The translations under genes and the position numbers were made by a program. Below, piece by piece: positions 1,364 to 30,932 of a stretch of 30,932 bases of DNA; the stretch's first letter is position 1; each line of letters begins with the position of its first letter. The DNA comes from Aurantiochytrium sp. KH105 (lineage: Eukaryota > Sar > Bigyra > Thraustochytrida > Thraustochytriidae): positions 1-30,932 of the forward strand of contig BGKB01000300.1 in the NCBI GenBank assembly GCA_003116975.1, read 5' to 3'. A model generated the notes under the pieces. It ran no database searches. It saw only the letters and a list, made by a program, of their open reading frames with translations, and was not told where the DNA came from.

Positions 1364-2161
1364 ATGAGCGGCGCCGATGGAGAGAACGCGACGAGCGCCG
1401 GCACCATGAGCGAGGGCGTCAAGGCGTGCGTGGAGGCCTTCAAGAACGGCAAGCCGTGCATGGTCTTTGACAGCGCGTTCCGGGAGGGCGAGACGGACTT
1501 GCTGTTCCCCGGTGTCGGCACCAAGCCCGAGTGGATCCGCCGTCTGCGCAAGGAGTGCGGCGGTCTGCTGTTCCTTGCCATCGGCGACGAGGTCGGCGAG
1601 ATGTTCGGCATGCCCTACCTTCAGGACCTCTTCAAGGAGATGGAGGGCTCGCACGCTGTGCTCAAGGCCCTCGACACGACGGATCTCCAGTACGACTCGC
1701 GCTCCGCCTTTACCGTCTCGCTCAACCACCGCAAGACCTTCACCGGCATCACCGACAAGGATCGCGCCCTCACCACGGCCCGCTTCGCCGAGCTCACTAA
1801 GGAGCTCCTCGACGAGAAGGCGGACCAGGAGGCCTGCATCAAGCGCCTTGGCGAGGAGTTCCGCACCCCGGGCCACATTCCCGTGTGCCGCGAGAGCCCC
1901 GGCGGCCTCAAGAACCGCCGCGGCCACACCGAGCTCGCCGTCTCGATCGCCCGCCTCGCAGGTCTTGCTCCTGTCACTATTGGCGCTGAGATGCTCGCCC
2001 CCGAGGGCGACCTCGCGCTTCCCGTCGAGGAGGCCCGCGCCTACGCCAAGAAGCACGGCATCCCCATGGTCGAGGGCTACGAGCTCCTCGAGGCCCATGG
2101 CTTTGCCAAGGAGGCTTCCACTGAGGAGCCGGACGCCAAGAAGGCCAAGACCGACGAATAA
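1364..2161 (+). CDS. ribB: 3,4-dihydroxy-2-butanone-4-phosphate synthase (stand-alone, archaeal-like)
   Basis: This enzyme converts ribulose 5-phosphate to 3,4-dihydroxy-2-butanone 4-phosphate plus formate, supplying the four-carbon unit of riboflavin. The 265-residue protein carries the acidic substrate/metal motif REGETDLLFPG near residues 40-50, a GITDKDRA-type loop near 127-134, PGHIPVCRESPGG near 168-180 and the RGHTEL motif near 185-190, all in the family order. The REGETD form resembles archaeal enzymes as I remember them; bacterial RibB usually has an EDRENEGD-type motif. No GTP cyclohydrolase II domain is fused to it. The frame is open upstream to an ATG at 1253, but I chose 1364 (A at -3) because conservation begins later and the upstream part is low complexity; ATG 1406 is another option. 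The tail ends in a Lys-rich stretch, KKAKTDE. It appears intronless, and the next gene starts 890 bp downstream. Confidence 0.93.
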   Translation: MSGADGENATSAGTMSEGVKACVEAFKNGKPCMVFDSAFREGETDLLFPGVGTKPEWIRRLRKECGGLLFLAIGDEVGEMFGMPYLQDLFKEMEGSHAVLKALDTTDLQYDSRSAFTVSLNHRKTFTGITDKDRALTTARFAELTKELLDEKADQEACIKRLGEEFRTPGHIPVCRESPGGLKNRRGHTELAVSIARLAGLAPVTIGAEMLAPEGDLALPVEEARAYAKKHGIPMVEGYELLEAHGFAKEASTEEPDAKKAKTDE

Positions 2162-10321: not shown

Positions 10322-10955
10322 AGTGAGGAAGGCAGAAGAATCCGCGGGGAAGGAAGAGCCCCAGCCAGGCGGGCAGCGAGGCGCGCGCGCGAGTCGCGGC
10401 TGCGAGGGTCTTCTCGGAGGGAGGCAGAAGCCGCGAAGCTCCAGGCGAGCGACGAGCCGCCACCGCAGCGCGCGGCCGCGGCGAGGCGCGAAAGAACCGG
10501 CGGCAGACGCGGGGCGGGCGGCAGCGGGCGGGGAGGAGGGGCCAAAGCCGCAGCCCCACCGCGGTGCGTGACTGCGGGGACGAGGGCGGCAGGAAGAAGC
10601 GGCCAGGAAGGAAGCGAGACATGATCGACGTGACTGACTGCCAGTGACAGACAGGGGCCCCCAGAGAGGGGCGCTGCGAGGGAGGGACAGGCGGGCGGGG
10701 TCCGAGTGCCGGGCGGGCAGAGGGAGCGAGAGGGAGAGGGGAAAGGCGGAGGTAGAAAGACACGCGGATCGAGTAGAGCATAGCAGAGCGGAGCAGAGCA
10801 GAGCAAAGCGCAGCAGAGCAGACCGCCAAGTGCCGAGCGAGGCTGCGTCGAGCGCGAGAGGCGGTACGCGGAGGCAGACGCGCGCGCACGCTCGAGGCGA
10901 CGGCGCGCGGCGCAGCGGCGCGGAAGCAGCGGAGACGCTGGCGCGGAAGGAGCGG

Positions 10956-11042
10956 ATGGAGGGGATGATGATGGCGATGCCGGCGCAGCAAGAGGCGGGG
11001 ACGCCGCGGCCCAGGCCGACGGACGCGCAGCGACAGGCGGGC

Positions 11043-11079
<37 letters not shown>

Positions 11080-13430
11080 CGAGGAGAGGCGCAAGGACGA
11101 AGCTCGTGCGCGCGTTCCGAAGCGAAGGCGCGACGCTCGAAGGCAGACGCTCCGACGAGGAGGTTGAGGAGGAGGAGGAGGCCCTGGCGAACAGGGCCAA
11201 CAAAAACTCGAACGTGGAAAAGAACCCGCGCTGGCACAACAACAACAACAACAACAAATGGCCCGAGGTCGACGCAGACACTGACGACGGAGTGCGCGGG
11301 AAAAGCAACAACGATTCCAACCAGGAAGAAGAGGACGCGCAAGTCAACCCATTCTCCACAGGCCAGGCGCTCAGGAAAAGCAAAAGCGACCTTCAGCGAA
11401 GAGGATCCGCGATGAGCCACGGCGAGATCCTCGAGCAGTATCAGCTGGGCCAGCTTCCCCCACCAATGCAACGCAACCTCGTTCGACCATCCCAGAGCGA
11501 CCTTGGCCTCATGCTCGAGTCGCGCGTCTCCACCGGAAGCGACACGGACGAACCCAGCGTTGCGGGCTTTGATAGCAGCCTGCACCTCGGGTCGCCCTCC
11601 TCAGGCGCTAGCTACGAGTCAGGTTCCACCTTTTTCATGTCTCCGCGCACGCCGAAAAACTACCTTGGTTTCGAGATCCCCTCAAGAGGCAACTTGCGCC
11701 GATCGAACTCAGCCGACGAGATCCCGGAAATGCAACCATCTTTTCCGAACTCACCACAACCACACTGCCCTCTGCCGCCCCAGCCTCCGAGTAAGGCCTC
11801 CCCACACAAATTTAACGAGGCCCCCGGGGGCATGTACCGCACTGGCGGCGGCAACGGCGCGCGAAGACGACTCTCGCGATCTCCGCGTCATCAGCGGAAC
11901 ATCACTGTAAGTCTTCTGCCCGAACATAACATGACGGACATGGAGAACTTGCAACGCATGAGCAACTACCTTCCCGAAGCACCCTCAAACAACAACAACA
12001 ACAACGCTACACGCATGCCACGTCGCAACACCCGTTTGGACGCGGAACGCTCCAAGTCAGATCTTGCGCTCGCGCAAGCAAGCGGCCGACCCATCGGCGG
12101 TGCGCGTCTCAACTCGCACCGCAAACGGGTCGTTCGTCCCCATCTCACCGCCATCAAACCGGTCGATGAGACCGCAGAGATCCACAACCCAGACTCGCCT
12201 GCGTCCTCCACAACAGTCGTTGCACCGCATGGCGTCTCGCCGGTCTCGGGAAGGTTCGTTCGCCCGTACCAGCGTCCGGATCGTCTCGGGCGCAACTACA
12301 CGCAACAGGGCGAGAGACAACCCCGCGACCGCCGCCACACCGACTCCGTCCTGCCCGTGCCGCGCTACACGCCTCTGTCCCCGGACCACCCTTCAGTGTC
12401 CCGGGGCCGGCTGGCGCCTCGTCCTGGGCTCAAAACGACCATCGGAGCTCCAACATCCACGCGCTACTCGCCGCGAGACCACAGTCCACGTCCAGTGCAC
12501 CCCACATTGCCTTCGTCCACCTCGTATTTGCCGCGTCGCGACTCGATCGCCTCTCACGCAAGCACGAGCTGCAGCAGCAACAGCGGGGGTGCTGGAATAC
12601 ACTCAATCATGGACATTGATTTCGACAGCGTCGTCGTCAATGAGATTCCCTTTGGTAAGGGATCCTTTGGCAGCGTCCACCGCGCGCTCGACAAGCGGTC
12701 TGGCACACACTACGCCGTCAAGCGGCTGCGGACCGACGTCAGCGACGACGTCAAGCGCCAGCACGAAGAGGAAGTCATCGTCATGCGGCGGCTCGAGCAC
12801 GAAAACATTGTACAATACGTCGCGACGCGCTTTGTCGAGCAGGAAACAACCCTGGAAATCTTTCTCGAATATGTGCCCGGAGGAAGTCTTTCCAGCGTCA
12901 TCAAAGAGTTCGGCGCCCTCTCCGTTGATCTCACCCGCAAGTACACGTACCAAATGCTCTTGGGTATTCAATACCTGCACAGCATGAATGTCATTCATCG
13001 GGACATTAAGGGAGCCAATGTGCTGGTCACGCTTGACGGCACTTGCAAACTTGCGGATTTCGGATGCTCTCGGATTCTCTCCGAAATGGGCACTGCCGAC
13101 CGTGACGAGACCCTTCGTCGCATTCGTGGCTCGGTGCCTTGGATGGCGCCCGAGGTCGTCAAGGAAACAGCATACAATTTGCCTGCCGACATTTGGTCGC
13201 TCGCGGCAACTGTTTTGGAAATGTCTTCGGGTTCGCGACCCTGGCCAGGCGTTGATCAGCCCATTGCTGCTATTTTCAAGATTGCAAGTTCCCCGAACGG
13301 GCCTCCCATCCCAGACGTTGTTCCATTGCAAGTGCGCGCTGTCCTCGACCTGTGCTTTCAAAAGGACCCTGACGCGCGCCCAAGCGCCCTTGATCTCCTC
13401 AATCACGACTTTTTCTTTCAGATCGACTAA
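10956..13430 (+). CDS. STE11/MEKK-type protein kinase (MAPKKK-like) with long disordered N-terminus
   Basis: This is an 824-residue Ser/Thr kinase of the MAP3K group, expected to phosphorylate MAPKK proteins. The catalytic domain spans about residues 555-822. It has the glycine loop GKGSFGSVH (567-575), Lys589 in YAVKRL, HRDIKGANVL with Asp683 and Lys685, DFG at 701-703, and GSVPWMAPEV with APE at 731-733, a wording typical of STE11/ANP/MEKK kinases. The C-terminus ends right after the kinase lobe. The first 550 residues are low complexity: a poly-Gln run (CAG repeats, about 11042-11078), poly-Asn runs, and Ser/Pro/Arg-rich sequence with four R/K-S-x-S-D/A motifs. The first in-frame ATG is 10956, followed by three adjacent ATGs from 10965; the open frame upstream has no ATG. 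A GTAAGT at 11907 is not used as far as I can tell, because the frame stays open. Confidence 0.93.
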
Positions 13431-14101: not shown

Positions 14102-15147
14102 GGCGCGCGCCCGCTACCGCGTCGAGCGCGGCGTCCGCGACGTCTTGCCCACGACTGACTCCCGAGCCACACTCGTGGTCTTGCTTTCGGATTTGCCGGG
14201 TTATTTTACAATGTACCGGTATATGACCGTTGCGGAATTCTGGCGACACGGACTCGATTTTGGGTGAAAATATTCGACTTTAAAGGGAAAGCGCATGAAC
14301 ACAAGGGAAAAAGAAATCGTATGGCGCGCGCTGTCTCGGCGTGTGGCGCTCGCTTTCTCGGCACTGGTTAGTCTGAAGTTCTCACAGTCCAATGACATAG
14401 GTTCTACAGATCAGAGAGAGGCCTATGCTGCGGCATGATGAGAGAATTGCGGATCATCAGTCCCAAATCGTTTCTCAGCTTTCAATCTCTAGGCTCGAAC
14501 CCTAAAGAACTCTCGGCATCGTTGTGATGCTCGTTTGAGCCGGAGTGAGATCGAGAGCAGGACAAAAAGAAGGAGACTTCGGCGGAGTTGCGTTGCAGTG
14601 CGAACGCCATCCGGGCGGACACGTCCGCCTCGCCAGCATCTGATCACAGGGAATACATCTCACTACAAGTCTCGCATTCTGCAATCGCAGAGCAACGAAG
14701 GTTTGCGGTAACACTAGAATCGCCAAGGATCCGATTGTCTGCAGCAGCAAAAGGGTAAATAAGGCTGCTCTTGCTCTTCCTCGACTGGATCTCCTCAGCA
14801 ACGAACGATCGTCCCATGAATTTACATTTTCTTATTGTGCTCTTCACTGGTTCACTCTGCCCGCGCTGCCTTGATCCCCGAGCGAGGGAAAATCACGGAC
14901 GTCCTCAAAGGTGTGCGGGCTCGGACGATCTCGCCGAAGAGCAAAACGGCCGTTAGACTCCCTCCCCCTTCACACTCTTTTCCCTTCTTCTTTTTTCCCC
15001 CTCCGGGCTCGGTCGGGGCCCCTTGGTGCAGGCAGCAGCGAGCGCAGTGCCGATTTTCTTGGGCGCTCGCGCGCAGGCGCTCGGCTGATCGCGGCCAGCG
15101 TGGTCTCGACGCGCAGACGGGTGATCGGGGCGGAGAGTCGTCGCGCG
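14102..15147. other. Region without a supported gene, with a second TGA-interrupted minus-strand frame
   Basis: On the minus strand an ATG at 14817 opens a 57-codon frame, polar and Cys-containing, to a TGA at 14644-14646. The same frame stays open and protein-like for another 53 codons to 14482. It may be decayed or part of a spliced gene. From about 14955 the plus strand is pyrimidine-rich and is probably the leader of the phosphatase-like gene. Confidence 0.3.
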
Positions 15148-17025
15148 ATGGCAGCCAGGGTCGTCGACGGTCTCTTCGTGGGCGACGCGCTGTCGTCCAT
15201 GGACGTGAACTTCCTCGTGGCGAACAAGATCACGAGGGTCATCAACTGCGCGGCTCTCGAGCTGGAGAATCGGTGGGAGGCGCTCGGCATCGAATACCTG
15301 AGCTTTGAGTGGGTCGCGGAAGAGAATTTTGATTTGCTCGCCGCAGACGGAATGACTCAAGCCTGGGGTCAAGACGCGAATGAGTTTGAAGTCGAGGGCT
15401 GTCCTTGCGTTTGGCTTGGCAAAACGTGCGCCTTCATCGAGGAAGCCCTGGAAGTCGGCGCCGGAGTGCTCGTGCACTCTCAAGACGGCACGAACCGCGC
15501 ATGTAGCTGCGTGCTCGCATATCTCATGAATGTCTACGGCTGGAGTTTGCATAAGTCCATGTCTTTTCTGCAACGCAAGCGATCCGACTTGTTGCCCAGC
15601 CAAAAGTTTGTCAAGCAGCTTCAGCAGGTCAGCGATTGGCTCGAAACAACCTACCTTGATGCCATGCCGCACGCTGCAGACTGGGCTGCGCGCAAATTTA
15701 GATCATGGAACGTGGCCGACATCGATCTCCACATGATTAGCACGCGCGCGAACGAGGAGCTCCTCTTGCATAACACCTATCTGAATAGCGACGCCAGTGA
15801 ATCCCAGCCCCATGCCGTGTGGGCAAAGTCAGGACACGATGCCGGAAACCTTTGCCCCAATGAATCCTCGAGGACCACGGAGATGCCATTACTTTCTGAC
15901 CAACAGAAAACGCTTGCCCCTGTGACAGTCTCATCACCGCACCGCGCGAAAAGGCGATCACGACGCGAGGCAGGCTTGGCGTGTAGGGAGCCCAAGTCAG
16001 TGTCATGGATTGACGCGGATGAAATCGTGAAAAGTGGCCAGCCCGTCATGCGGAGCCCCTTCAGCAAGCGCGTCGTGCCCGAGCGTCCTCCCGGTCCCTC
16101 GTACAGGTCCCTAGCGGCGACAGGTCAATGGAAGGAGCTCGAGTCTTCTCCTGCTGCAGATTCGCATCGGAGTCCAAGCAAAGCGGCAATGTCGTCTCTG
16201 AGCCCGGCAAGAACGGTCTCGTCTCCCGTTAAATTCGCAACCATTGTATATGAAGAGGGTGAGGTCACTCATGAAGAGGAGGAGTTGGGTTTGAGACTAA
16301 AACCTAGAGCGACAAGACCTACACCTGAGCCACCCGGGATGGCCGAGAGTCTCTGGACTGGACCCGAAGCTTCCAGCATGGCCGAGAGTCTGCTGAGCGT
16401 CCGCGAGGACCATGCAAATCCTGCGGACGAAGGCCATTTCGAGAATACAGCTCATGCGAGCGACACAGCAAACAGGAGCGGCGCTTCGACAAATCTTCCG
16501 TTAATGTTGGATAATTTAAACCTTGGACACTTACGATCAGCGCTCATGGCCAAGGGCGTCGTCGAAAGTGGGTCTGTGCACGCGCATCGGCCACCTTCTC
16601 CGCCCGTATCACCGCCGCGTCGTCGCACAAAAAGAGCTTCGAAACCTGGACAACGGCCCTCTGCATCCCTCACGAGGCCCACATCTGCATCTGCGAGCCG
16701 TAGTCGCGAAATGACACGGGCAGCGTCAAAATCCACTGCCAAAAGCAAGCGACTGTCCTCTTCAACAAAGACTGTCAGGTCTTTAAAAAAAGGGTCGTCT
16801 CAGAAAATGAACCCCAAGGCGCCGACGTCATCTCGGCGTAAGCGACTAGGTACCGAAAACGTTGAACCGCCGCCGATGCTGTCCAAGTCTTGCCCGCCTC
16901 GCCGTCCTGCGCGCATCGCGAGGAATCGTGGAAAGGCTCGCGCTCTCTCTCAAGATGACCATCACAATCTCACCACAACGCTTGCCGTGGACGCAGCGCA
17001 ATTGAAAGTTTCCTCACGACGCTAG
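15148..17025 (+). CDS. Dual-specificity phosphatase-fold protein, predicted pseudophosphatase
   Basis: The 625-residue protein starts with a dual-specificity phosphatase domain (about residues 3-166): VVDGLFVGDALSS and VINCA at the start, the signature loop at 108-118, then a helical end (FLQRKRSDLLPSQKFVKQL) typical of this fold. The signature reads VLVHSQDGTNRA, where active enzymes have HCxxGxxR-S/T: the catalytic Cys is Ser111 while Arg117 is kept. STYX-type proteins with such changes bind phosphoproteins without hydrolysing them. A binding or scaffold role is therefore inferred. Residues about 170-625 are low complexity, first acidic or mixed, then strongly basic and Ser-rich (RRRTKRAS, SSRRKRLG), possibly nuclear or microtubule-binding. 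MAESL occurs twice near 16338-16395. I chose ATG 15148 (G at -3), since the open frame upstream has no ATG. It converges with the LRR receptor gene, 255 bp away. Confidence 0.85.
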   Translation: MAARVVDGLFVGDALSSMDVNFLVANKITRVINCAALELENRWEALGIEYLSFEWVAEENFDLLAADGMTQAWGQDANEFEVEGCPCVWLGKTCAFIEEALEVGAGVLVHSQDGTNRACSCVLAYLMNVYGWSLHKSMSFLQRKRSDLLPSQKFVKQLQQVSDWLETTYLDAMPHAADWAARKFRSWNVADIDLHMISTRANEELLLHNTYLNSDASESQPHAVWAKSGHDAGNLCPNESSRTTEMPLLSDQQKTLAPVTVSSPHRAKRRSRREAGLACREPKSVSWIDADEIVKSGQPVMRSPFSKRVVPERPPGPSYRSLAATGQWKELESSPAADSHRSPSKAAMSSLSPARTVSSPVKFATIVYEEGEVTHEEEELGLRLKPRATRPTPEPPGMAESLWTGPEASSMAESLLSVREDHANPADEGHFENTAHASDTANRSGASTNLPLMLDNLNLGHLRSALMAKGVVESGSVHAHRPPSPPVSPPRRRTKRASKPGQRPSASLTRPTSASASRSREMTRAASKSTAKSKRLSSSTKTVRSLKKGSSQKMNPKAPTSSRRKRLGTENVEPPPMLSKSCPPRRPARIARNRGKARALSQDDHHNLTTTLAVDAAQLKVSSRR

Positions 17026-20188: not shown

Positions 20189-20997
20189 CTAGAGCGCCAT
20201 TCCACCCTTCAAGTTCTGCTCGGCCGAATTCGCGGCGTCCACGCCACGGAAATCGTCGACCTTCACCACGCCCTCCGCGGCGGGCCTCGAGTGCTACGCG
20301 ACGACGTTTTCCGTATACACCAATGCGTTATCCTCGGGCTGGCTGACCTGCATTCGGGCCTCGCGATGTTCGTTCAACCTCTTGCAGGAGCTCCTTTTCT
20401 TGACGGGAGAGGCCGCGACTCGTACGAGTTCCTTCGTAGGAGGGAATCGTGAGTGTGGGTGTGCGCGATCGTGCCGCCGTTGTTGTTGTAGTACTGCTGA
20501 GGGTGTGGAAACACGAGCTTTTTGGTACGTATACTATACGTGTATACTATCCGTGTAAGACGAGAATAGAATAACGGGGAGCCAAATTGAAGGCACGCAC
20601 AGAAAGCTCAGTGTCGCGAAGTGAGGATAATCGTAAGCTTTGCGTTGCGTTGTGTTGCGTTACGTTGCGTTGTGCGCATTGCGCTGTTGCCGGAGGCCCC
20701 TGGCCATCTTTCCTCGTCGGTCCGTCAGTCATGCATGGTCCGAGGCAAGGAAGGACTCGGCAAACGTGCATGTAAGGTATACGTATCTAATAACGGTCGT
20801 ACTACGACGTCTACCATGCGAGTCGTTGTAAGCGCGGAGAAGTTGGTGTTGTCATCGATCACCTCGGCGGCTCGAGGCTCGCGGCTTCCTCGTGTCAGGG
20901 CATGAAACAACGAAAGCGAATTCATGAAGTGAAGAACGCGAAGCTCGTTAGGGATCTTGGGTGAGTGCGTCAACGTAAGTAAGGATGGCATAACCAA
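20189..20997 (-). CDS. Possible small spliced gene of unknown function (unresolved)
   Basis: Two minus-strand stretches look protein-like. The first starts at an ATG at 20991 and reads on to about 20770, with pieces such as IPNELRVLHFMNSLSLFHAL and RAAEVIDDNTNFSAL. The second, from about 20545 down to a TAG at 20189, contains PTKELVRVAASPVKKRSS and EGVVKVDDFRGVDAANSAEQ. A pyrimidine-rich CCCCGTTATTCTATTCTCG stretch ending in AG precedes the second part. An in-frame TAG near 20291 is removed if a 54-bp GT-AG intron (CAG/GTCAGC to GCGTAG, about 20291-20344) is spliced out. Codon third positions in the second part are mostly G or C. I cannot fix the junction between the parts or identify a family. 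The plus strand of the second part is also open, so the coding strand is uncertain. Confidence 0.3.
20636..20690. repeat. GTTGC-type pentanucleotide repeat
   Basis: Degenerate tandem GCGTT/GTGTT/ACGTT units. If the flanking minus-strand gene is real, this would lie in its intron. Confidence 0.65.
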
Positions 20998-21011
20998 ACG
21001 AGCAGAAGACC

Positions 21012-22751
21012 ATGACGCAGCACGGAGAAACGACGAGCGCGCTCGGCGAGGGGGGCGGCGGGCGCGGCGCGCGGTGGCCTGCGCTGGCGTGCGGATGCCT
21101 GCTGCTGGTGGTGGCCGGGAACATCTACGCCTTTGGCGTGTGGAGTGAGGCGCTCTCGCTGCGATGGCCCGAGCACGAACGCGCCCACGGCCAGGCGCTC
21201 TTGAGCACGCTGTACGAGTGCACGCTCGTGGGTACCTACGTGCCAGTGTCCGGGTTCTTCTTTCATAAATTCGGCACGCGCAAGACGATGCTCGTGGGCG
21301 CCGTGCTCAACACGTGCGCCTACGCAACGGTGTATCTGCAGTTCTTTAGCGGCCCCGAACGTGCCCCGAATGTCTTGTCCTACGTGGCCTTTTTCATGAT
21401 TGGCCACGCGACGAGCTTCATCGACATTGCCATCATTGGCAGCACGGTGCGCAACTTTTCCCTCCAAAATCGTGGCACCGTCATGGGCCTCCTCAAGGGT
21501 TACTTTGGACTGTCGGCAAGTCTCCTTGCGCTGGTGCACGAGACGGGACTCTCAGCAAGCGCCTTTCTCTTTGTCCTTGGTCCCGTCGGCTCAGCGCTGG
21601 TGCTCATCTGTCTGCCTTGGACAACGTCTCCGAAATCATTGCTGGAGAGCGAGCCTCTCGCGTGGTGGAAGCTCCGTTTCCTCTTGAGTGTCGAGGTTAC
21701 CATCGCAATCGTTCTCTTTTTACACTCCGTCTTGGCCCAAGACGCGCCCCAATTCGTCACACTCGTAGTTCTAGTACTGGTCGCCGGAGCATTGGGGACC
21801 ACATTCTTTACAGACTATGCGATACTGCTGTCACGCGCGCTGCGAGCCGACGGAGTTCTGGGGGGCTTGCGCGCCCCCGAGTCGCCAGATGCTTCGCTCA
21901 ATGATGTCTTTGGGGACTCCCCGCGCCACCAAGAGTCCTCAGCCCTTCTTGAGGAGGAGAGTCGTGCCTCTGCACAGCTTGCACGCGAACACGGGACGGC
22001 ACAAGTGCCGTCCAGCCACGCTGCGGCTGAAGATATTCAAGAAGAATGTGAACCGACACGCAGTGGTGGGGCTGAGGAGGACAAGGTGGTGTCAATGACA
22101 ATGTCAGAGGCCCTCCGATCTGGCCGATTTTGGCTGTTCTTCTTGATGCTTCTCGTGACGATGGGCGGAGGCCTTTTCCTCGTGGGTAATGCAGCGCGAA
22201 TTGTCGCGTCCAAGGGTGGAAATGATTCAGAAATCTCCATGCTGGTGTCGGTGATTTCCGTGTCGAACTGCCTCGGGCGTGTGGGCATTGGTTTTCTTGC
22301 GGACCACCCCGTGCTGCAGCGTCACAACATAGATCGAACGTGGCTTCTCATGGGCGTCACGCTCGCTATGGGCGTGGCTCAGATTCTTTTTGCTGTTCTC
22401 CCGCTCTATGCGCTTCCTTTGGCGGGAATTCTAGGCGGCGCCTCGTACGGCGCGTCGTGGACCTTGGACCCCACGATTTTGGCAGACATTTGCGGGCTCG
22501 AGTACTTTGGTCTCCTCTATGCGGTGGTTGGCTTTGCGCCTACGTTCGGGTCTCTTATCTTCTCCAACATTCTTGCTTCCCTCGTCTTTGAGAGCCACGC
22601 CACCGAGAACCCCGACACACATGTGGACGAGTGTTTCGGAAATCAGTGTTTCGGCTTTGCGCATTGGCTCACGGCCTGTGTCGCCATCATCGCGAGCCTC
22701 ACCGCGGGCCCGCTGCTGTCGCGCCTGCAAGCTCGCGCCAAGGCCAACTAA
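21012..22751 (+). CDS. Nodulin-like major facilitator superfamily transporter
   Basis: This is a 579-residue polytopic membrane protein with about 12 hydrophobic segments in two halves. The first half runs from about residue 24 to 285 (RWPALACGCLLLVVAGNIYA opens helix 1). An acidic hydrophilic loop spans about 285-360, and the second half runs from about 370 to 570. Family-specific features are GTVMGLLKGYFGLSASLLA in the first half, close to the GLLKGxxGLSxA motif of plant Nodulin-like/NFD4 proteins, and the C-terminal GSLIFSNILASLVFES with a paired-Cys ECFGNQCFGF element, which matches the end of those proteins. The MFS loop FFHKFGTRKTML lies between helices 2 and 3. The substrate is unknown; relatives are variously linked to metal or small-metabolite transport. 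The ATG at 21012 has A at -3. No intron is seen. Confidence 0.88.
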   Translation: MTQHGETTSALGEGGGGRGARWPALACGCLLLVVAGNIYAFGVWSEALSLRWPEHERAHGQALLSTLYECTLVGTYVPVSGFFFHKFGTRKTMLVGAVLNTCAYATVYLQFFSGPERAPNVLSYVAFFMIGHATSFIDIAIIGSTVRNFSLQNRGTVMGLLKGYFGLSASLLALVHETGLSASAFLFVLGPVGSALVLICLPWTTSPKSLLESEPLAWWKLRFLLSVEVTIAIVLFLHSVLAQDAPQFVTLVVLVLVAGALGTTFFTDYAILLSRALRADGVLGGLRAPESPDASLNDVFGDSPRHQESSALLEEESRASAQLAREHGTAQVPSSHAAAEDIQEECEPTRSGGAEEDKVVSMTMSEALRSGRFWLFFLMLLVTMGGGLFLVGNAARIVASKGGNDSEISMLVSVISVSNCLGRVGIGFLADHPVLQRHNIDRTWLLMGVTLAMGVAQILFAVLPLYALPLAGILGGASYGASWTLDPTILADICGLEYFGLLYAVVGFAPTFGSLIFSNILASLVFESHATENPDTHVDECFGNQCFGFAHWLTACVAIIASLTAGPLLSRLQARAKAN

Positions 22752-23090
22752 GGTAAGGTAATCTGTCTCTGGAAATCGTCAATTGATTGTGAAGCCAAGC
22801 CGGAGTCCTGGCACGGCAAAGAGCGTGCGAGGGTGGTATGGTTAGATAGATATCCGGTGAGCGCTCTCAGGCGGTACACACCTTTTGCTTGCCCTTGGCC
22901 GAAGACGAACCAAGTGGCTCGCGCAGGCAAAGAGAGGGCGCGCGTCTGCTCGAGTGTCGCGCACGCGCGCGCGCAGAACCAAGGCTGCGCCAGGGTCTGG
23001 CGTGGCGCTCGTGTCGGGCTTCGCGCACGTACGCGCCTCCTTCGTCGCTTGACAGCTTGGTGGCCGGTGACACGGGTTGTCGCGGGCGCA
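22752..23090. other. Intergenic region upstream of the IQ-motif gene
   Basis: The 339 bp hold no supported gene. The frame of the IQ gene is open through most of it but has no ATG and is Arg/Ala-rich, so it probably contains the 3' UTR of the transporter gene and the promoter and leader of the next. Confidence 0.5.
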
Positions 23091-24863
23091 ATGGTGGAGG
23101 AAGTGAAGGCGACAGCAGCGTCAAGACCGCGGTCGCGCACGGCGGCGCGCTCAAGGTCCAAGTCTCCGGGTCGAGCGACGCCCGCAGCGCGGTCAAAGTC
23201 CGCCGGCGTGGTGCTGGCGCCGCTCGGATCGCCAGAGGAGCGTGTGGAACAGACGCGCGCGCTGTATCTGAGTGCCGGGTCGCTTGGCGCTTCTGGCGCG
23301 GCCGCTGCCGCAGCTGCCGCGGCCTCAGCAGCCGTCGACGCGAGCACCTTTCGGTCAGAGCTACTCTGCAAGAACGCTGCGCGGCCAACGCGACGAAGAA
23401 ACGAGACGCTCGCTGCAGATCTGGATCGTCGCATCGACCAACTCTTGAAACTGGCTCGAAGATGGGCCGCGAGCGCTGCGAATGCGAGTGAGGCGATCGG
23501 GCCAGTCTCTCCTGGCGGAGGTGGCGGCGCCAGTGGTGCTGCGATGATGATGAGCATTGGCTCGGTGGAGTCCGGGCCTGGGCTCGGCGTTGCGAAAAAG
23601 AGGAGGCCGCGACCGCCCTTTGATTATGCCGGCGCCGTACTGAAGCTGTCGCATGACTTTGACAGTCGCGTGCAGGAACCCACGGTACATCGTTTTCTTT
23701 CCTCGCTGCTGGCCCTTATTCGGGGCAAGCCTCTGGGAAAGCGGGACATTGCGCACCTGCGATCGGATCTGGTGATCTTGGGCGTTCAGGCACCGCGCGC
23801 GGAAATCTTTGCGGGTCTGCAGCAGTTGCACAAGGACGCGATGGTGAACAAAGCTTCGGAAGCGGCGCGAGCCTTGCGCATGCTTGCGTCGCTCGTGCTC
23901 AAGAGCACGTTGATCGCCTCTGCAACCAAGGTTCAGGCCGTGGCTCGAGGCCATATGCAGCGCGCTCTTCTTGTGCGTCAACAACGCGAAAAGGAGGAAG
24001 CACGTGCGGCGACAACCGTTCAAGCTGCAGCGCGCGGCAAGCTTGTGCGAAAGGCGAATCGTAATCGTACTATTGCGGCCCAAAAGGTTCAGGCTGTGAC
24101 GCGTGGGCACGCGGTGCGGAAAGAACAGGCTCGTCAGCATGGGGCCGCGACGAAGGTGCAAGCACTGGCGCGCGGGCAGCGCGATCGCAAAGAGATCAAG
24201 CGCCGTCACAAGGCAGCCACCCAAGTTCAAGCAATGGCTCGTGCGCGTCACGAGCGCAGAGTCTTGCAAAAGAAGAAGGAGGCTGCTATAAAGGCCCAAG
24301 CCTTGGCTCGTGGGCGCATTGTACGCCGCGAGCTTGCGGCGAAACGACGATGCGTGACGCAAGTCCAAGCTGTTGTGCGTGGGCATCACGCTCGCGAAGA
24401 ACGCAAGGCACAGACAATGGCGGCTGTCAAGGTGCAGGCGCTTGCGCGAGGACGACAACAACGCAAGCGTGTTTTGTCGCGAAGTCAGTCCGCGGTCCAG
24501 ATTCAGGCTGTTACGAGGGGCCATCTCGCTCGCGTTTCGCAATCCGCGCGAAATTTGGCCCAATCGGCAGAGATCCACGAGGGTCTTGAGGATCACGTTG
24601 ACGAGATGTTTGAGGCCATGGCATCGGACGCCAATGCCGCGATTTGCATGAGTGAAAACTCTGATGACAAGATGGCGCTGACGGTAAAGGATGCTGAGGC
24701 AGATGAAGCGATCAAAGAAGTTGAGGTTGCGGAGGAAGGTAAAATCGAGCATGAGGCGAGTCAGGAGCCCAATGAGACGAATCAGGAGCCCGAGAGGGCG
24801 AGCCAAGAGCCTGAAATTGCAAAGTCTCCGATCGATGAAAAGTCGAATGATCTTGCAGTTTAA
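23091..24863 (+). CDS. Protein with nine IQ calmodulin-binding motifs
   Basis: The 590-residue protein has a basic Ser/Arg-rich N-terminus (SRSKSPGR), a poly-Ala run (about 70-82) and a helical region (about 100-275, including FDYAGAVLKLSHDFDSRVQE) that I do not recognise. Nine IQ-type motifs follow (about 279-482), each of the form xVQAxxRGxxxR, e.g. KVQAVARGHMQR and QIQAVTRGHLAR. The core Gln residues lie at about 282, 311, 334, 357, 380, 403, 426, 449 and 472: after the first gap all are exactly 23 apart. Such arrays bind calmodulin or related EF-hand light chains along a helix. There is no myosin motor, so a calmodulin-loaded scaffold is the inference. An acidic tail with repeated SQEPE/NQEPE elements ends at TAA 24861. 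ATG 23091 has G at -3 and no earlier in-frame ATG exists. The frame continues protein-like past the stop (next entry). Confidence 0.85.
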   Translation: MVEEVKATAASRPRSRTAARSRSKSPGRATPAARSKSAGVVLAPLGSPEERVEQTRALYLSAGSLGASGAAAAAAAAASAAVDASTFRSELLCKNAARPTRRRNETLAADLDRRIDQLLKLARRWAASAANASEAIGPVSPGGGGGASGAAMMMSIGSVESGPGLGVAKKRRPRPPFDYAGAVLKLSHDFDSRVQEPTVHRFLSSLLALIRGKPLGKRDIAHLRSDLVILGVQAPRAEIFAGLQQLHKDAMVNKASEAARALRMLASLVLKSTLIASATKVQAVARGHMQRALLVRQQREKEEARAATTVQAAARGKLVRKANRNRTIAAQKVQAVTRGHAVRKEQARQHGAATKVQALARGQRDRKEIKRRHKAATQVQAMARARHERRVLQKKKEAAIKAQALARGRIVRRELAAKRRCVTQVQAVVRGHHAREERKAQTMAAVKVQALARGRQQRKRVLSRSQSAVQIQAVTRGHLARVSQSARNLAQSAEIHEGLEDHVDEMFEAMASDANAAICMSENSDDKMALTVKDAEADEAIKEVEVAEEGKIEHEASQEPNETNQEPERASQEPEIAKSPIDEKSNDLAV

Positions 24864-25783: not shown

Positions 25784-26719
25784 TCATGGCGTGTACGTTT
25801 GAGGGAAGAACTCGTCGCGTGGGCTTGCCTCTTGAGGCAGGTAGTAACGTCCGTAAATATAGTCCGGTCGACGGGTGTCACGCCACGTTACGTCGGATCG
25901 AACGAGGTGGACACCGAGAGCGCGTCGGTGACGCGTGGAAGATACACTTGCAGCGCTACCATGCCACACGTCCTGGTGATGTACAATTGCCTCGCCTGCG
26001 CGCACAGTGATCCGCTGAATGTCAATATCTGCATCCGAGACCCCTGCATTGCGCGCAGCTTGAGCAAGTGGGCCAAGATGATGGGCCTGGCCATGAAAAG
26101 CGGACCCGCTGGCGGTTGTTTCCTTGGCCTTGTTGTTGGGCCAGAGATGAGAGCCAACACAATATTCTACAACGCCAGTGTCTTGGTCTGCATCATCAAG
26201 GGCAATCCAGATGGTGACGCTATTGTTCTCGTACGGTTTAAATTGTGCAGATATATAGGCTGAGTCCTGATGAAACGCGACGCCGCCTGCCAAAGGAGGC
26301 TTCCAGAGCACATCGTCTTGAGCAAGTCGTGCACCGTCAGGCCAGCCCATGAGTTCCGTGGCAAGTTTACCGAGCGTTGGGGATCGTACAATTCCAGCGA
26401 TTTGAGAGTCTGCCTTCCAGCCATTGACAATCTCACGAAAGGCGTCGGGCTTGGAGATGCCCTCGCGCCAGTGCCACTCGTCTGGGTAGATGCCCGTGTC
26501 GAAGTTGCCCTTGAAGAGGTCCTCAAAGCGGCCGCGCGCGCGTTGCACGTCATCGTCCGAGAGTACCTTGCCGACCGCAACAAAACCATCTCGTGCGAGC
26601 TTGGCCGACGCGTCGGCAGAGACGACTGGCGCAGTGGTCGAGGACAGTCGGCGCGGCAGGGCTGACAGCGTCTGGGCCGTCACCCTCTTGTTTGTCCTCG
26701 CCACGTTGGAGACCAACAT
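25784..26719 (-). CDS. Phytanoyl-CoA dioxygenase (PhyH) family Fe(II)/2-oxoglutarate oxygenase
   Basis: This is a 311-residue member of the PhyH family of non-haem Fe(II), 2-oxoglutarate-dependent oxygenases. The metal-binding HxD motif is FHQDSAYIS (about His150, Asp152). The distal His is in VWHGSAAS (about His253), followed by the 2-oxoglutarate-binding Arg in RHRRALGVHL (about 265-266), at normal family spacing. The N-terminus (MLVSNVARTNKRVTAQTLSA then LPRRLSST) is basic, hydroxylated and free of acidic residues, as in mitochondrial presequences, so I chose ATG 26719 (A at -3). An in-frame ATG at 26779 would add 20 residues and weaken that signal. The substrate is unknown; the family includes phytanoyl-CoA hydroxylase and many small-molecule hydroxylases. 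The stop is TGA. Confidence 0.87.
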   Translation of the reverse strand: MLVSNVARTNKRVTAQTLSALPRRLSSTTAPVVSADASAKLARDGFVAVGKVLSDDDVQRARGRFEDLFKGNFDTGIYPDEWHWREGISKPDAFREIVNGWKADSQIAGIVRSPTLGKLATELMGWPDGARLAQDDVLWKPPLAGGVAFHQDSAYISAQFKPYENNSVTIWIALDDADQDTGVVEYCVGSHLWPNNKAKETTASGSAFHGQAHHLGPLAQAARNAGVSDADIDIQRITVRAGEAIVHHQDVWHGSAASVSSTRHRRALGVHLVRSDVTWRDTRRPDYIYGRYYLPQEASPRDEFFPQTYTP

Positions 26720-27175
26720 AGTTATCTTCGCTTCGCGTCCCGAGTTTGTTAGTTTGCAAAATGCCTGAAAGATCGTCATCACCACCCGAGGAACAAGCCG
26801 GAAAATCCATCAAAATCGGTTAGCCATGTGGAAGCTTGCAAATGCCGTGGTGACGAGACCGGGCTTCCGAAAGTTTATGATCACGAGAGACTTTGGCGTA
26901 CGCTTCACGCTTGCAACGAAATTCCGCGTCAAAAGTTTTGATCTCCTCCCGAGACTTGATTGATAATATTTTTTCCTAAAATTGGTGACTCTCGCGACGA
27001 GTCGAGAAGAGAACTGTGTTGAGTAGCTCGGTATTGTTTCAAGAACGCGACGCGAGGTTTCATATCGATACGCTTAGTCACGTAAGCGCGGGAAGACGAC
27101 GGAGTTGCTGTAGATTTGCAGCAAAGTGCAGCGAACTCTCGATACATGGCGCAAAGGCGATTCAATTATTTATTT
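26720..27175. other. Intergenic region between LRR-kinase-TIR gene and PhyH-family gene
   Basis: Both flanking genes are on the minus strand. The 456 bp should hold the 3' end of the LRR-kinase-TIR transcript and the promoter of the PhyH-type gene. No frame or repeat of note is seen. The minus strand just upstream of 26719 stays open to an alternative ATG at 26779. Confidence 0.5.
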
Positions 27176-30100
27176 TTATTCAGGCGCTGGTCCATGCGCT
27201 CTTCCATTCCTCAATTTTCGTGCGCGGGAACAGAGCTCGTCGATGAGTGCAGGGTGTTCGTGGCCCACGTCGCAGTTTCCTATTGACGGAGATGAACGCC
27301 ACATCAAGACTTCCAGGCGGTCAAAGAGCCTGCTCTGAAGTTCTGGGGTAAACTCGCCCTTGTGAGCATCATCGAATTTCCATTCATCCTCGACCGCAAT
27401 GGCCAAGACAGGCTGTGCACCGAGCTGGTTCGAAACCAAAGCCCTTTCCACTTCATGTTGACAGCCTTGTTCCAAAACCACGACAACCACTGATGACGCT
27501 TCGACAGCATCAGACTTATTGTGGAATAGAGTAACATGCACATTGAGCTTTTCGTGTTCTTTTTCAAGCTTCTTGAAAAGCTCTCTCGTAACCCTTGAAC
27601 TCGCCATTCCAGCAACTACAATCGAAAGTTCCTCCGAGCTCGCGCTGCTGGCAGGAGGCAATGTATCGAATCCAGCGCGAGTAATGAGAGCTTGAAGCAT
27701 TGCCTCTTCCTCATAGAGGCGACGACGGTAAGGTATCTTTTTGCAATGCTTGAGTGCTAGTTCCGCGTTAGCCAGAATCTCCTTTGAAGACACGGGATCG
27801 CCTTTCCAATTTTTCAAGCCTAGGTCGTGCAGAGTCCTTTTCAATTCACCGGCTTCTATGACACGTTGATCCCCGTTCGCTTCCGTTCCTTCACGCCAAG
27901 GCACATCACTTTCACTCCACTGATCGAAGCGATCATCCATCTCGACGATAAAGAAGATGTTCCATTCCAAAGCATCGTATCGAGATGAAGTTTTGAAGAA
28001 TTCAACCGCAAAGTAAAGTTCTGCGAGAGAGTATGGCCTGAAGAGCACGCCCTTCGTGAGTACCATGACAAAGCGCCTTGATGCCAAAACACCTCGATAC
28101 ATCGACTCGAGTGTGATTTCTGACGCGCGCATATCGATCCACGATGACAGCTGGTGCCGTTCGAGGCCAGCTGCAAGGTCCTTGACGATCCCGGCCGCCT
28201 GCGACTGCATGTGCGACAAGAAAAAGTGGTACGTCGGGAGCTCTATGAGTTCACTGTGAGCACCTTGTTCGTAAAATTTGTTCGGTGTCGTGCTTCTGCG
28301 CAGCCGCGCTTTTGTGGTGCGTCCGAAAAGGCTGAACCGACGTGGAATAATGGCTTTGTGCAGACTCATAACGCGGCGTGAGAAACGCGGGGGGGTGGAG
28401 CTACTCGCGCGCACTGGCGTATGCGTATTGATATCCTCCTCCTCCTCGCTCGGCTCGCACGTATTTGTTCGAATTGATTCAAAGAAAGGGTGCTCGTCGA
28501 TGATCTGCTTCACGGTGATACGCTCTTCCGGGTCACCACGCAAGCACAGACGAACGAGGTCACGGGCGGCCTCGATCTCAAATTCAGTTGCACCGAGATC
28601 ATCTACCTTCCTCTTCCCCTTGCTCTCGCGCAGCTTGATGCGATGTAGACGTTCGTCATCCACCCCGAGCCAGTTCATAAGCTCAGTCTTCTCGCGACTT
28701 GTCACGAGATTATCGTCGGATTCGTCGACCATGAAGAGTTTTGTACCAGAGAGCAACTGAAAAAGCACCACGCCAAAGCTCCAAACGTCGATTGCCGGGT
28801 CGGCCTTTGGGGCCATGTCCTCTTTTGCTTCGTGTAGAAAGTGCCACTTGGCCAGTTCAGGAGCTGCGTAGCCAGTGCTCACCTTTTCCGTGACGACACT
28901 CTTTTTCTTCGGCACCTTTTCAAAATTTATCGGTGCCGACGCGTCCAAATCAATAAGTTGCCAGTCTTCGTCACTTGCGGAGACAGAACGCTCTCCCGTC
29001 ACATTTTCTCGCCATTCTTTTGGAACCTCGAGACGATCTCCTTTCTTAGCATACGAGAATGTGTGTTGCTTTGAAGCAGCGAGACGCACAACGTTGCGTG
29101 GCTTGATGTCACCATGAATTCGACCGCTGTCGTGCAGACTTTTGACTGCAGAAATAATCTTGTACGTAATCGTCCGGATTTTCTGCAGGTCACGGCCGGC
29201 AAAGCGCTCCGTGTTGATGGCTTCAAACAGTGAACGCGAGCCTCTTTTCATGACCAGGCACAGCTCATCATCAAGGCGCTTAGCGAAATTGCCATCCTCG
29301 CGGTGGAGAAGTGGCAAACAGCCTGCGAGTTTCGGGCCTCCGCCGTCTGCAACCTTGCGTGCACCAATTTCACGATTGTACTGCTCCTGTTTTCGCATCA
29401 TCTTGAGCGCTACTGCTTTGTTTGTTTGGATGTCCGTGGCGAAGTGAACCGCGCACGTTTTAGATTCGTGAACGGGAGGGCCTTCCACGATGCTGTAACG
29501 ATCGAGATACGTGCCATACGTCTTCGCCCACTCCTTGGTGTTTTTGTTGGTGAGTGCAAGTGATCGAAGAGATCGGCCGCCTTCATCTTCGGCCATCATC
29601 AACTGGAGCCCATCTTCGAGAGACAAGCATCTTGCGAGAACTTCATCGCAAAACCATTGCGGAAGTGAGTATGTTGTTTTTGTCGCGTGGCAGTCGAAAA
29701 GTGCATGGATCAAAGGAACAGCGGAATCATCTTTCTCGATCGAGATTTTATCATCACTCGCTCCCTCGTTTCTGAGAAGCCACACATTGGCTTTTCCGAG
29801 ACGATTCTGCACACTTGGTAAATAGCAAACGCATAGAGCAGCAAGAAAAACGGCGAATAGGTCTGCGTGCTTTTCAGCTAATTCATGCGCGGCCGGAGTC
29901 CATTTCTTTCCATCTTCGTTCAGATAAAATTCCAAAATTCTCTCCACACGAGCACCGCCTTTCGAGAGCTTCAGCAACTCCTTCCAAGACAAGGATGGAA
30001 GACGACGTATGCCACTAAATAGGAGGACGGAAATTAGTATGAAGGATGTAATACGTATCCACACAATGCACAAGCCATTCCAGACAAAGCTTACCTAAAC

Positions 30101-30863
30101 TCGTGCACACGACAATTCTGAGCCAAAAGAACAATCAACAACGCGAATTCGCCATCTGGGCCGATCTTGTTTTCCTCAAGCCTGTGCATGACGATTGTGG
30201 TGTGACATGGCATTCATTACATTGATTGCATTCATTGATGAGCGCGAAATGGCTGTCAGTGTCCACCCTCATGTCGCCGTCGTCGTCGTCTTGGCGCAGT
30301 CCCGCCTTTCTGCTCTCCGCCACGAACGCCCACCTGCCTTCCTTCACGCAGAAATCCACGCATGCCGCCTTCTTGCGTTGTCCAATCCAAAGTCTTGCCT
30401 CCAATCAAACGCAGCAAAACACAACCGAACCAACTTACTTCAAAGACGTAAGCGAGCTGTTCTTGCCCAAGCCTTCCCTGAGCCCAAGGGCGCCATCGTC
30501 GCCGATCTTGTTCGACTCAAGACTGTGCATGATGATTGTGGTGTGGCATGGCATTGATTGCATTGATTGCATTGATTGATGAGCGCGAAATGGCTGTCAG
30601 TGTCCACCTTCATGTCGCCGTCGCCGTCGTCTTGGCGCAGTCCCGCCTTTCTGCTCCCCGCCACGAACGCCCACCTGCCTTCCTTCACGCAGAAATCCAC
30701 GCATACCGCCTTCTTGCGTTGTCCAATCCAAAATCTTGCCTCCAATCCAACGCAGCAAAACACAACCGAACCAACTTACTCCAAAGACGTAAGCGAGCTG
30801 TTCTTGCCCAAGCCTTCCCCGAGCCCGACGGCGCCTGAGTCGCCGATCTTGTTGTCGAAAAGA
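27176..30863 (-). CDS. LRR - protein kinase - TIR fusion protein, 5' end outside the window
   Basis: Exons by ascending position: 27176-30014, 30095-30181, 30439-30522, 30780-30863; more must lie beyond 30932. The three small exons each encode one ribonuclease-inhibitor-type LRR (LFDNKIGDSGAVGLGEGLG, LESNKIGDDGALGLREGLG, LEENKIGPDGEFALLIVLL) in a continuous phase-2 frame. The large exon gives a helical linker, a kinase domain (about 29512-28478), a basic linker, a TIR domain (about 28234-27970) and a C-terminal alpha/beta domain (about 27631-27299). The kinase has VALKMM (Lys codon at 29404), HGDIKPRN instead of HRDxKxxN, DLD instead of DFG (from 28951), GYAAPE (28873-28856) and DVWSFGVV. The TIR domain has YHFFLSH, WIDMRASEIT, GVLASRRFVMVLTKG and RPYSLAELYFA, with Glu at 28021-28019 in the position of the NADase catalytic Glu. 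An upstream ATG at 30073 is intronic. An intracellular sensor with immune-like signalling is the inference. Confidence 0.9.
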
Positions 30864-30932
30864 CTGTGCATGATGATTTTGGTGTGGCATGGCATTCATT
30901 GCATTCATTGCATTCATTGATGAGCGCGAAAT
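30146..30932. repeat. 341-bp tandem repeat, each unit one LRR exon plus one intron
   Basis: The sequence GATGAGCGCGAAAT recurs at 30237, 30578 and 30919, a period of exactly 341 bp, and the array runs off the right edge. Each full unit is an 84-nt LRR exon plus a 257-nt intron on the minus strand. Hand alignment of the two full introns (30182-30438 and 30523-30779) gives 11 differences in 257. The exons 30439-30522 and 30780-30863 differ at 13 of 84. A short TTCATTGCA/TTGATTGCA nonamer repeat occurs inside each intron (about 30212-30236, 30553-30577, 30894-30918). The left end of the array is the last, more diverged LRR exon. Confidence 0.93.

Follow-up and report, generated by a model that had tools for sequence, protein, structure and literature searches.

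The window, a stretch of 30,932 nucleotides that makes up the entire contig C300, carries on its minus strand a gene predicted to join leucine-rich repeats (LRRs) of the ribonuclease inhibitor (RI) type, a protein kinase domain, and a TIR domain in one chain. Its four exons (Table 1) read in one frame across three introns, which measure 257, 257, and 80 bases and each have GT-AG borders, and the predicted product is 1030 amino acids long. Every exon begins at the third codon base, so that a single phase is shared at the exon borders. The LRR portion is a tandem repeat with a period of 341 bp and 92% matches; the contig stops within this array, and the 5' end of the gene is therefore missing. 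Pfam analysis of the spliced protein returned LRR_6 (1.1e-10, in three stretches), Pkinase (3.4e-22), and TIR_2 (1.2e-07), all above the curated cut-offs. The original prediction had placed the TIR domain at 28234-27970, which matches the Pfam TIR_2 span of 28225-28001. It had also seen no nucleotide-binding module; likewise, Pfam at E values up to 10 found no NB-ARC, NACHT, or other nucleotide-binding domain in the part of the protein held by the window, which lacks the 5' end. A Roc-COR module was absent from the window gene when the spliced protein was analyzed with Pfam.

Relatives were sought by protein search in the same genome (76.03 Mb, 367 contigs; L and C numbers denote loci and contigs), in which 48 out of 186 candidates from the first look were scored; such six-frame searches ignore introns, and the counts span both haplotypes. 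At least 78 matches were found and grouped into 37 loci. Two of these resembled generic kinases and one was TIR-only, leaving about 34, some of which carry stops or are fragments. We read 21 loci (20 fetched plus the window), and 19 of them had two or more split LRR exons in the same phase with AG and GT borders. A protein pattern gave 173 LRR-like hits in the 21 loci, 160 of which were preceded by AG and followed by GT at a spacing of 84 or 87 bases. The background frequency of AG(84)GT across positions of this DNA was 0.44%; the splice sites around the LRR hits are thus not due to chance. The AG acceptor of the kinase exon and its phase were the same in all 17 loci checked; L015, L018, L027, and L028, which are broken or differently built, were left out of this check. 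Putative first exons in four relatives have a short basic start, a long acidic run, and then a stretch of the form LSGQRA...KAI.LMRNG.

In L028 the LRRs are not split by introns, and L028 (C180) and L029 (C53) each hold an uninterrupted frame of 1313 amino acids with LRR_6, Pkinase, and TIR_2 above cut-off. These two loci are 96% identical and may be alleles. A 1435-amino-acid piece of a longer open frame in L030 (C16) exceeds the cut-offs for LRR_6 and Pkinase and falls just short of that for TIR_2 (27.7 bits, cut-off 28). Such uninterrupted frames, together with an acceptor and phase common to all 17 loci checked, speak against two neighboring genes in the window, that is, an LRR gene stopping before 30014 and a separate kinase-TIR gene. 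Two genes would be in keeping with a kinase-TIR frame that stays open across the entire last intron (972 amino acids, to 30094) and with a last LRR exon that, if unspliced, meets a stop at its own donor. However, most other LRR exons of the arrays also meet a stop at the donor, and separate genes would yield one-repeat proteins; we regard two genes as exceedingly improbable. The splice model, Pfam, and the unsplit relatives agree that the three LRR exons join the kinase-TIR exon in frame, and these sequence data confirm the predicted fusion as real and as a single gene.

Both haplotypes seem to be present in the assembly. The transporter gene beside the receptor gene in the window has one other match, with 98% identity, on C42 beside L009, and the window and the L009 region share 95% identity over 10 kb of flanking sequence; L009 was taken as the allele of the window gene. 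Two further pairs, L014/L016 and L019/L020, are 91% identical across about 10 kb. Matches to the PfaA family, 24 in number, lie on five contig pairs; they reach 930 bits (E 1.4e-278), below the family cut-off of 1010, and 11 of 14 control genomes also match, none of them over the cut-off. As a lead only, such matches would suit a protist with a PUFA synthase, for example a labyrinthulomycete. If both haplotypes are indeed present, the haploid number of loci would be roughly half of that counted.

Each array is built from cassettes of one LRR exon and one array intron, and these cassettes resemble one another across loci far more than the genes that carry them. Array introns of the window were on average 96.0% identical to those of L010 (best 98.4%) and 93.7% identical to those of L011, whereas the synonymous difference (pS) of the kinase-TIR part was 0.598 and 0.602, respectively. 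Between loci in general, synonymous sites of the kinase-TIR part differed by 0.28-0.63. As a control, the last intron, which lies outside the array, was only 65-77% identical in 14 of 14 non-allelic pairs (six genes) and 89% identical in the allelic pair. Forty cassettes from eight related loci passed a filter on spacing and sequence, and 30 from five loci were aligned with their flanks (13 of them supplied by L012); this set excludes 7 cassettes from L018 and 3 others that lay too close to the end of a contig. The mean array-intron distance was 0.116 for the 119 pairs from the same locus and 0.110 for the 316 pairs from different loci, and these 30 cassettes did not group by locus (permutation p 0.81), so that the arrays behave as a single pool. 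A second cassette type, of 274 bp, gave 49 matches on eight contigs; six of these contigs hold kinase-TIR loci, and the matches on C54 and C316 are weak. On C54, a TIR frame (G000:C54:206305-209848) has weak matches to the 274-bp type about 3 kb upstream and may represent yet another class of receptor.

When one cassette of the window served as query in a DNA search, 83 matches resulted, including arrays away from any kinase-TIR match. The arrays of L036 (C303), L037 (C101), and L039 (C90) precede a frame in which Roc, COR-A, and TIR_2 all exceed their cut-offs. At L038 (C66) the contig stops within the array, and this locus is left without a class. L036 and L039 have a possible intron of 80-81 bases before the Roc exon, with a common acceptor and phase; because other acceptors are also possible, the LRR-Roc join remains a predicted model. 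The array on C342 lies just before a Roc-type match that carries one stop, and a search of the same genome with the Roc protein gave at least 59 matches (50 of 295 candidates scored). Dedicated silent cassettes were considered as an explanation of the arrays away from kinase-TIR matches and were rejected for the arrays that were read, with those of C303, C101, and C90 preceding Roc-COR-TIR frames and C66 ending inside its array; the arrays at C9:125k, C143, C133, and C217 lay outside this set. In the genome as a whole, counted across both haplotypes, TIR_2 had at least 150 matches, every one of them above its cut-off (258 candidates, of which 150 were scored). There were 2 matches to NB-ARC, both above the cut-off, and 17 to NACHT, 15 of them above it.

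Cassettes on the two kinds of gene, or chassis, are close relatives. The closest Roc-linked and kinase-linked cassettes differed by 0.013-0.025 in their introns (four Roc-linked cassettes), and for loci away from contig ends the differences were 0.021 (L011 and L037) and 0.039 (L009 and L037). When the nearest cassette by intron was determined for 52 cassettes, it came from the same locus in 11 cases, from another locus of the same class in 29, and from another class in 12, 6 of which involve L038, the locus without an assigned class. Mean intron distances, with L018 left out, were 0.110 between kinase-linked loci, 0.157 among Roc-linked cassettes, and 0.143 between kinase-linked and Roc-linked cassettes. 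If these were ordinary duplicated receptors whose array introns are alike through constraint, without any exchange of cassettes, then a resemblance of the introns in length and sequence across many loci, as seen here, would be expected. Constraint on a single intron type across two gene classes is a less economical account, however, and it has to be set against a last intron of the same genes that is so much less alike between non-allelic loci, the large synonymous differences of the kinase-TIR parts, and cassettes that do not group by locus. Constraint without exchange is, in our judgment, quite improbable.

Variation within the LRR exons is concentrated in a few codons. Across two cassette types (44 and 39 exons), the entropy at LRR residues 2 and 3 (of L-x-x-N) was 2.7-3.2 bits, whereas L1, L14, L18, and L24 were fixed or nearly so. 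N4, I6, G7, and G10 were also fixed in the exons found by pattern; since the search pattern required them, constancy at N4, I/L/V6, G/Q7, and G/C10 is partly by construction. A pattern-free control based on splice sites and other positions in 12 loci gave 70 exons, with N4 in 67, G7 in 69, and G10 in 70, and added 4 previously missed exons in eight kinase loci. By base, codons 2, 3, 5, 8, 9, 25, and 26 were the most variable, and the silent sites of codons 4, 7, and 14 were identical in 30 of 30 cassettes. Over 435 pairs, codons 2-3 differed on average at 0.544 of their bases, compared to 0.112 for introns and 0.086 for the codons not counted as variable. The window itself provides an example: its two cassettes have 0 of 6 bases in common at codons 2-3, and the introns that follow are 95.7% identical. 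LRR residues 2 and 3 lie on what we take to be the concave beta face, the ligand-binding face of LRR folds.

The difference at codons 2-3 was 0.59 both at intron distances of 2-5% (106 pairs) and at 10-20% (600 pairs), and it was 0.588, 0.590, 0.589, and 0.624 in the four intron-distance bins from 0.02 upward; in the 7 pairs with introns less than 2% apart it was 0.333. That the codons barely track intron distance above 0.02 would suit an origin by targeted mutation or templated copying, of the retroelement type or like that of lamprey VLRs, in place of selection on exchanged cassettes. The same origin would suit the finding that all three positions of the variable codons differ while adjoining silent sites hardly do, codon 4 being AAC in 64 of 70 exons. 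Nevertheless, selection together with conversion would give the same picture, and mutagenesis directed at adenines should not spare codon 4, with its AAC, or codon 20, which is AAG in 62 of 70 exons. With these two codons kept and codons 2-3 varying at all bases, retroelement-type adenine mutagenesis was rejected as unsupported, and we find an origin by targeted mutation or templated copying in general very hard to credit.

Alleles of the receptor gene are more divergent than their surroundings. Between the window and L009, the kinase-TIR part had a nonsynonymous difference (pN) of 0.061 and a pS of 0.183, compared to 0.005 and 0.074 for the neighboring transporter gene and 0.014 and 0.076 for the neighboring PhyH-type gene. 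The divergence was uneven along the exon, from 0.027 to 0.18 per 50 codons, and would fit alleles kept for a long time or conversion from paralogs. L022 and L024, which are possible alleles, are 92.5% identical over nearly 5 kb, have a kinase-TIR pS of 0.204, and carry 11 and 6 LRR exons, respectively. A similar difference between L021 (7 exons) and L023 (11 exons) was dropped as an allelic difference in array length because the stretch of L021 that was read contains 1043 N.

Such divergent alleles and unequal exon numbers would suit an allorecognition locus. The same molecule might then serve recognition of self and nonself between conspecific cells, during mating, fusion, or colony formation, and not defense against microbes. 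In contrast, the family has about 34 loci, there is a second class of receptor, and the TIR matches number at least 150, which would go beyond the usual needs of allorecognition; we consider this role unlikely.

In the window kinase, the VALK lysine, HGDIKPRN, and DLD are present (L028 has HAD); the lysine is kept in 20 of 20 rows with letters at that position, and the HxD and DLD aspartates are kept in 21 of 21 loci. The conserved TIR glutamate, which we take to be the catalytic residue as in AbTIR and SARM1, is kept in 19 of 21 loci, the window included, and NAD signaling by the window TIR is possible. When a profile built from the TIR domains of eight members of the family was searched against the PDB, 20 matches were returned at E values up to 1, the best being 7uxr (E 0.00065). 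The nine best were TIR or TIR-like chains, Cat1, TcpB, and AbTIR among them, and the family glutamate aligns with a glutamate of the match in 7uxr, 4lzp, Cat1, and 7uwg. A second TIR in the C-terminal region, suspected by eye, was rejected when profile comparison with TIR gave a probability of 0.6%; because the TIR profile is thin (Neff about 2), it is unsupported rather than excluded. Two single-sequence structure predictions had mean pLDDT values of 35.3 and 42.0 and were too poor for use. The receptor is likely cytosolic: no 19-residue window of hydropathy exceeded 1.6 in L028, L029, or L030, and none exceeded 0.95 in the putative first exons of L009 and L018, neither of which starts with a hydrophobic stretch.

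Taken together, these data suggest that the window gene probably belongs to a family of cytosolic nonself sensors in which germline exchange moves LRR cassettes between two classes of TIR receptor. The array of RI-type LRRs, one per exon, would form the binding arc, the kinase domain would be a switch or transducer, and the TIR would be the output, either as an NAD-consuming enzyme or as a platform for TIR-TIR signaling. Cassettes could move without a break in frame owing to the common exon phase, presumably through unequal crossing-over and gene conversion in germline cells, with selection keeping the contact residues different. Binding of a ligand would cluster the receptors and activate the kinase, whereupon the TIR domains would assemble and give a danger signal or cell death. 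Such a system would amount to NLR-like nonself recognition without NB-ARC or NACHT in these proteins. Going further, the genome-wide pool of hypervariable cassettes, moved in frame between kinase-TIR and Roc-COR-TIR genes, might constitute an anticipatory repertoire on chassis without NB-ARC or NACHT, which in its boldest form would involve dedicated or clonal (somatic) renewal of the contact codons; we offer this only tentatively and think it doubtful.

Several observations weigh against a sensor family with exchanged cassettes. The two classes are not fully mixed, the intron distance between classes exceeding that within classes by 0.027 (permutation p 0.03, L018 left out). At codons 2, 3, and 5, pN/pS was 1.05, with both terms near 0.5; given this saturation, the ratio is no proof of positive selection. 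No LRR pattern was found in the 6.5 kb read upstream of L027. Several arrays lie at contig ends, and the stretches read hold 100 N in L011 in addition to those in L021. No GxGxxG glycine loop was seen upstream of VALK when the window protein was read. In L014 and L016, which are probably two alleles of one locus, the TIR glutamate is replaced by glycine (CLAGL), and the TIR encoded there may lack NADase activity. Only one PDB match fell under an E value of 0.001, and toluene monooxygenase chains came next after the TIR matches (E 0.38-0.58). The hydropathy of the window protein reached a maximum of 2.02 over 19 residues (spliced residues 135-153), so that a membrane segment is possible there. 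Finally, another thraustochytrid is reported to have relatively few LRR proteins (PMC8917795).

The remainder of the window contains genes of other kinds, which are listed in Table 1 with the features of the receptor gene and of related loci.

Table 1. Features of the receptor gene, of other genes in the window, and of related loci (window positions unless a locus is given)
Feature	Position	Strand	Basis or remark
LRR exon, 84 bp, one RI-type LRR	30780..30863	-	AG/GT borders, LRR_6; first exon remaining in contig
Hypervariable codons 2-3 of first LRR exon	30854..30859	-	Position-by-position comparison
Array intron, 257 bp, part of 341-bp cassette	30523..30779	-	Period-341 tandem repeat; 95.7% identity to next array intron
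LRR exon, 84 bp	30439..30522	-	Splice borders, LRR_6
Hypervariable codons 2-3 of second LRR exon	30513..30518	-	0/6 bases in common with 30854-30859
Array intron, 257 bp	30182..30438	-	GT-AG splice model
Last LRR exon, 87 bp	30095..30181	-	Last exon of identical length (87 bp) in L009-L013
Last intron, 80 bp, beyond cassette array	30015..30094	-	Diverged among loci
Effector exon, 2839 bp: inter-domain region, kinase, TIR, C-terminal region, stop TAA	27176..30014	-	Open frame
Conserved inter-domain region, exon residues 1-180	29474..30013	-	Residues 1-80 aligned across paralogs; without Pfam match
Protein kinase domain	28481..29449	-	Pkinase 2.7e-22; alignment
TIR domain, conserved Glu in FRPxxLAEL	27881..28246	-	TIR_2 9.6e-08 (core 28001-28225); PDB profile search
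C-terminal conserved region	27179..27868	-	Alignment
DHBP synthase (riboflavin)	1430-2161		Pfam
Strong protein kinase	10638-13430		Pfam
Dual-specificity phosphatase	14875-17025		Pfam
Nodulin-like MFS transporter	20994-22748		Pfam
Protein with seven IQ motifs	22752-24863		Pfam
PhyH-type dioxygenase	25787-26752		Pfam
Roc-COR-TIR frames behind cassettes	L036:812-3553, L037:849-3590, L039:1104-3770		Pfam
Putative first exons	L009 about 2.6-4.1 kb, L011 0.7-2.2 kb, L015 3.9-5.4 kb, L018 0.2-1.4 kb

Among known systems, plant TNL receptors, considered here together with animal NLRs, also pair an LRR sensor with a TIR output in a large and variable gene family. The window protein differs in having no NB-ARC or NACHT in the part held, a kinase in the center, and its TIR towards the other end. 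Bacterial TIRs (Cat1 and AbTIR) gave a weak profile match over the TIR core of the family; we know of no LRR or kinase in such proteins. Nor, to our knowledge, is a C-terminal TIR found in the LRR receptor kinases of oomycetes and plants. These receptor kinases combine LRRs and a kinase with a transmembrane helix (PMC2939053). The original prediction did not recognize the LRR-kinase-TIR order as one already described. It is not new: Richter et al. published choanoflagellate 'Kinase TLRs' with LRR-transmembrane-kinase-TIR architecture, along with 'Kinase TIRs', in 2018 (PMC6040629). Kinase TLRs resemble the window gene in having LRR, kinase, and TIR in one chain. They are defined by a transmembrane segment between the LRRs and the kinase, whereas none is clearly seen in the window family; they were unique to choanoflagellates in the data set of that study (PMC6040629). 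The window family, in contrast, has one LRR per exon in shared cassettes and seemingly belongs to another lineage.

With the domain order already known, the unexpected finding is a sensor cassette that is both shared and hypervariable. Should the organism be a labyrinthulomycete, it has relatives that grow in culture, and sequencing of clones as well as challenge experiments would be feasible. With nearly identical cassettes on two chassis and the variable codons pinpointed, two questions become directly testable: whether sensors are swapped between receptor classes, and whether repertoires of this kind evolved alongside NLR immunity. In the open-licence literature, we found no description of an LRR-kinase-TIR family with such exon arrays or of LRR cassettes common to two receptor classes. 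The brown-algal LRR-ROCO genes are also of a stramenopile, if the window organism is a labyrinthulomycete. They are described as having 72-bp phase-2 exons that encode 23-residue LRRs, with exon shuffling, alternative splicing, and a proposed immune role, and TIR is named there among the domains on ROCO proteins of other organisms (PMC11378527). The two families are alike in having one LRR per exon and a single phase. The 72-bp exons are described only on LRR-ROC-COR genes, whereas the exons here are of 84 bp, encode 28-residue LRRs, and occur with both kinase-TIR and Roc-COR-TIR (PMC11378527). Shuffling of LRR exons in brown algae was proposed, on one chassis, as a source of diversity in immune receptors; here, in another protist, nearly identical cassettes stand on two signaling chassis.

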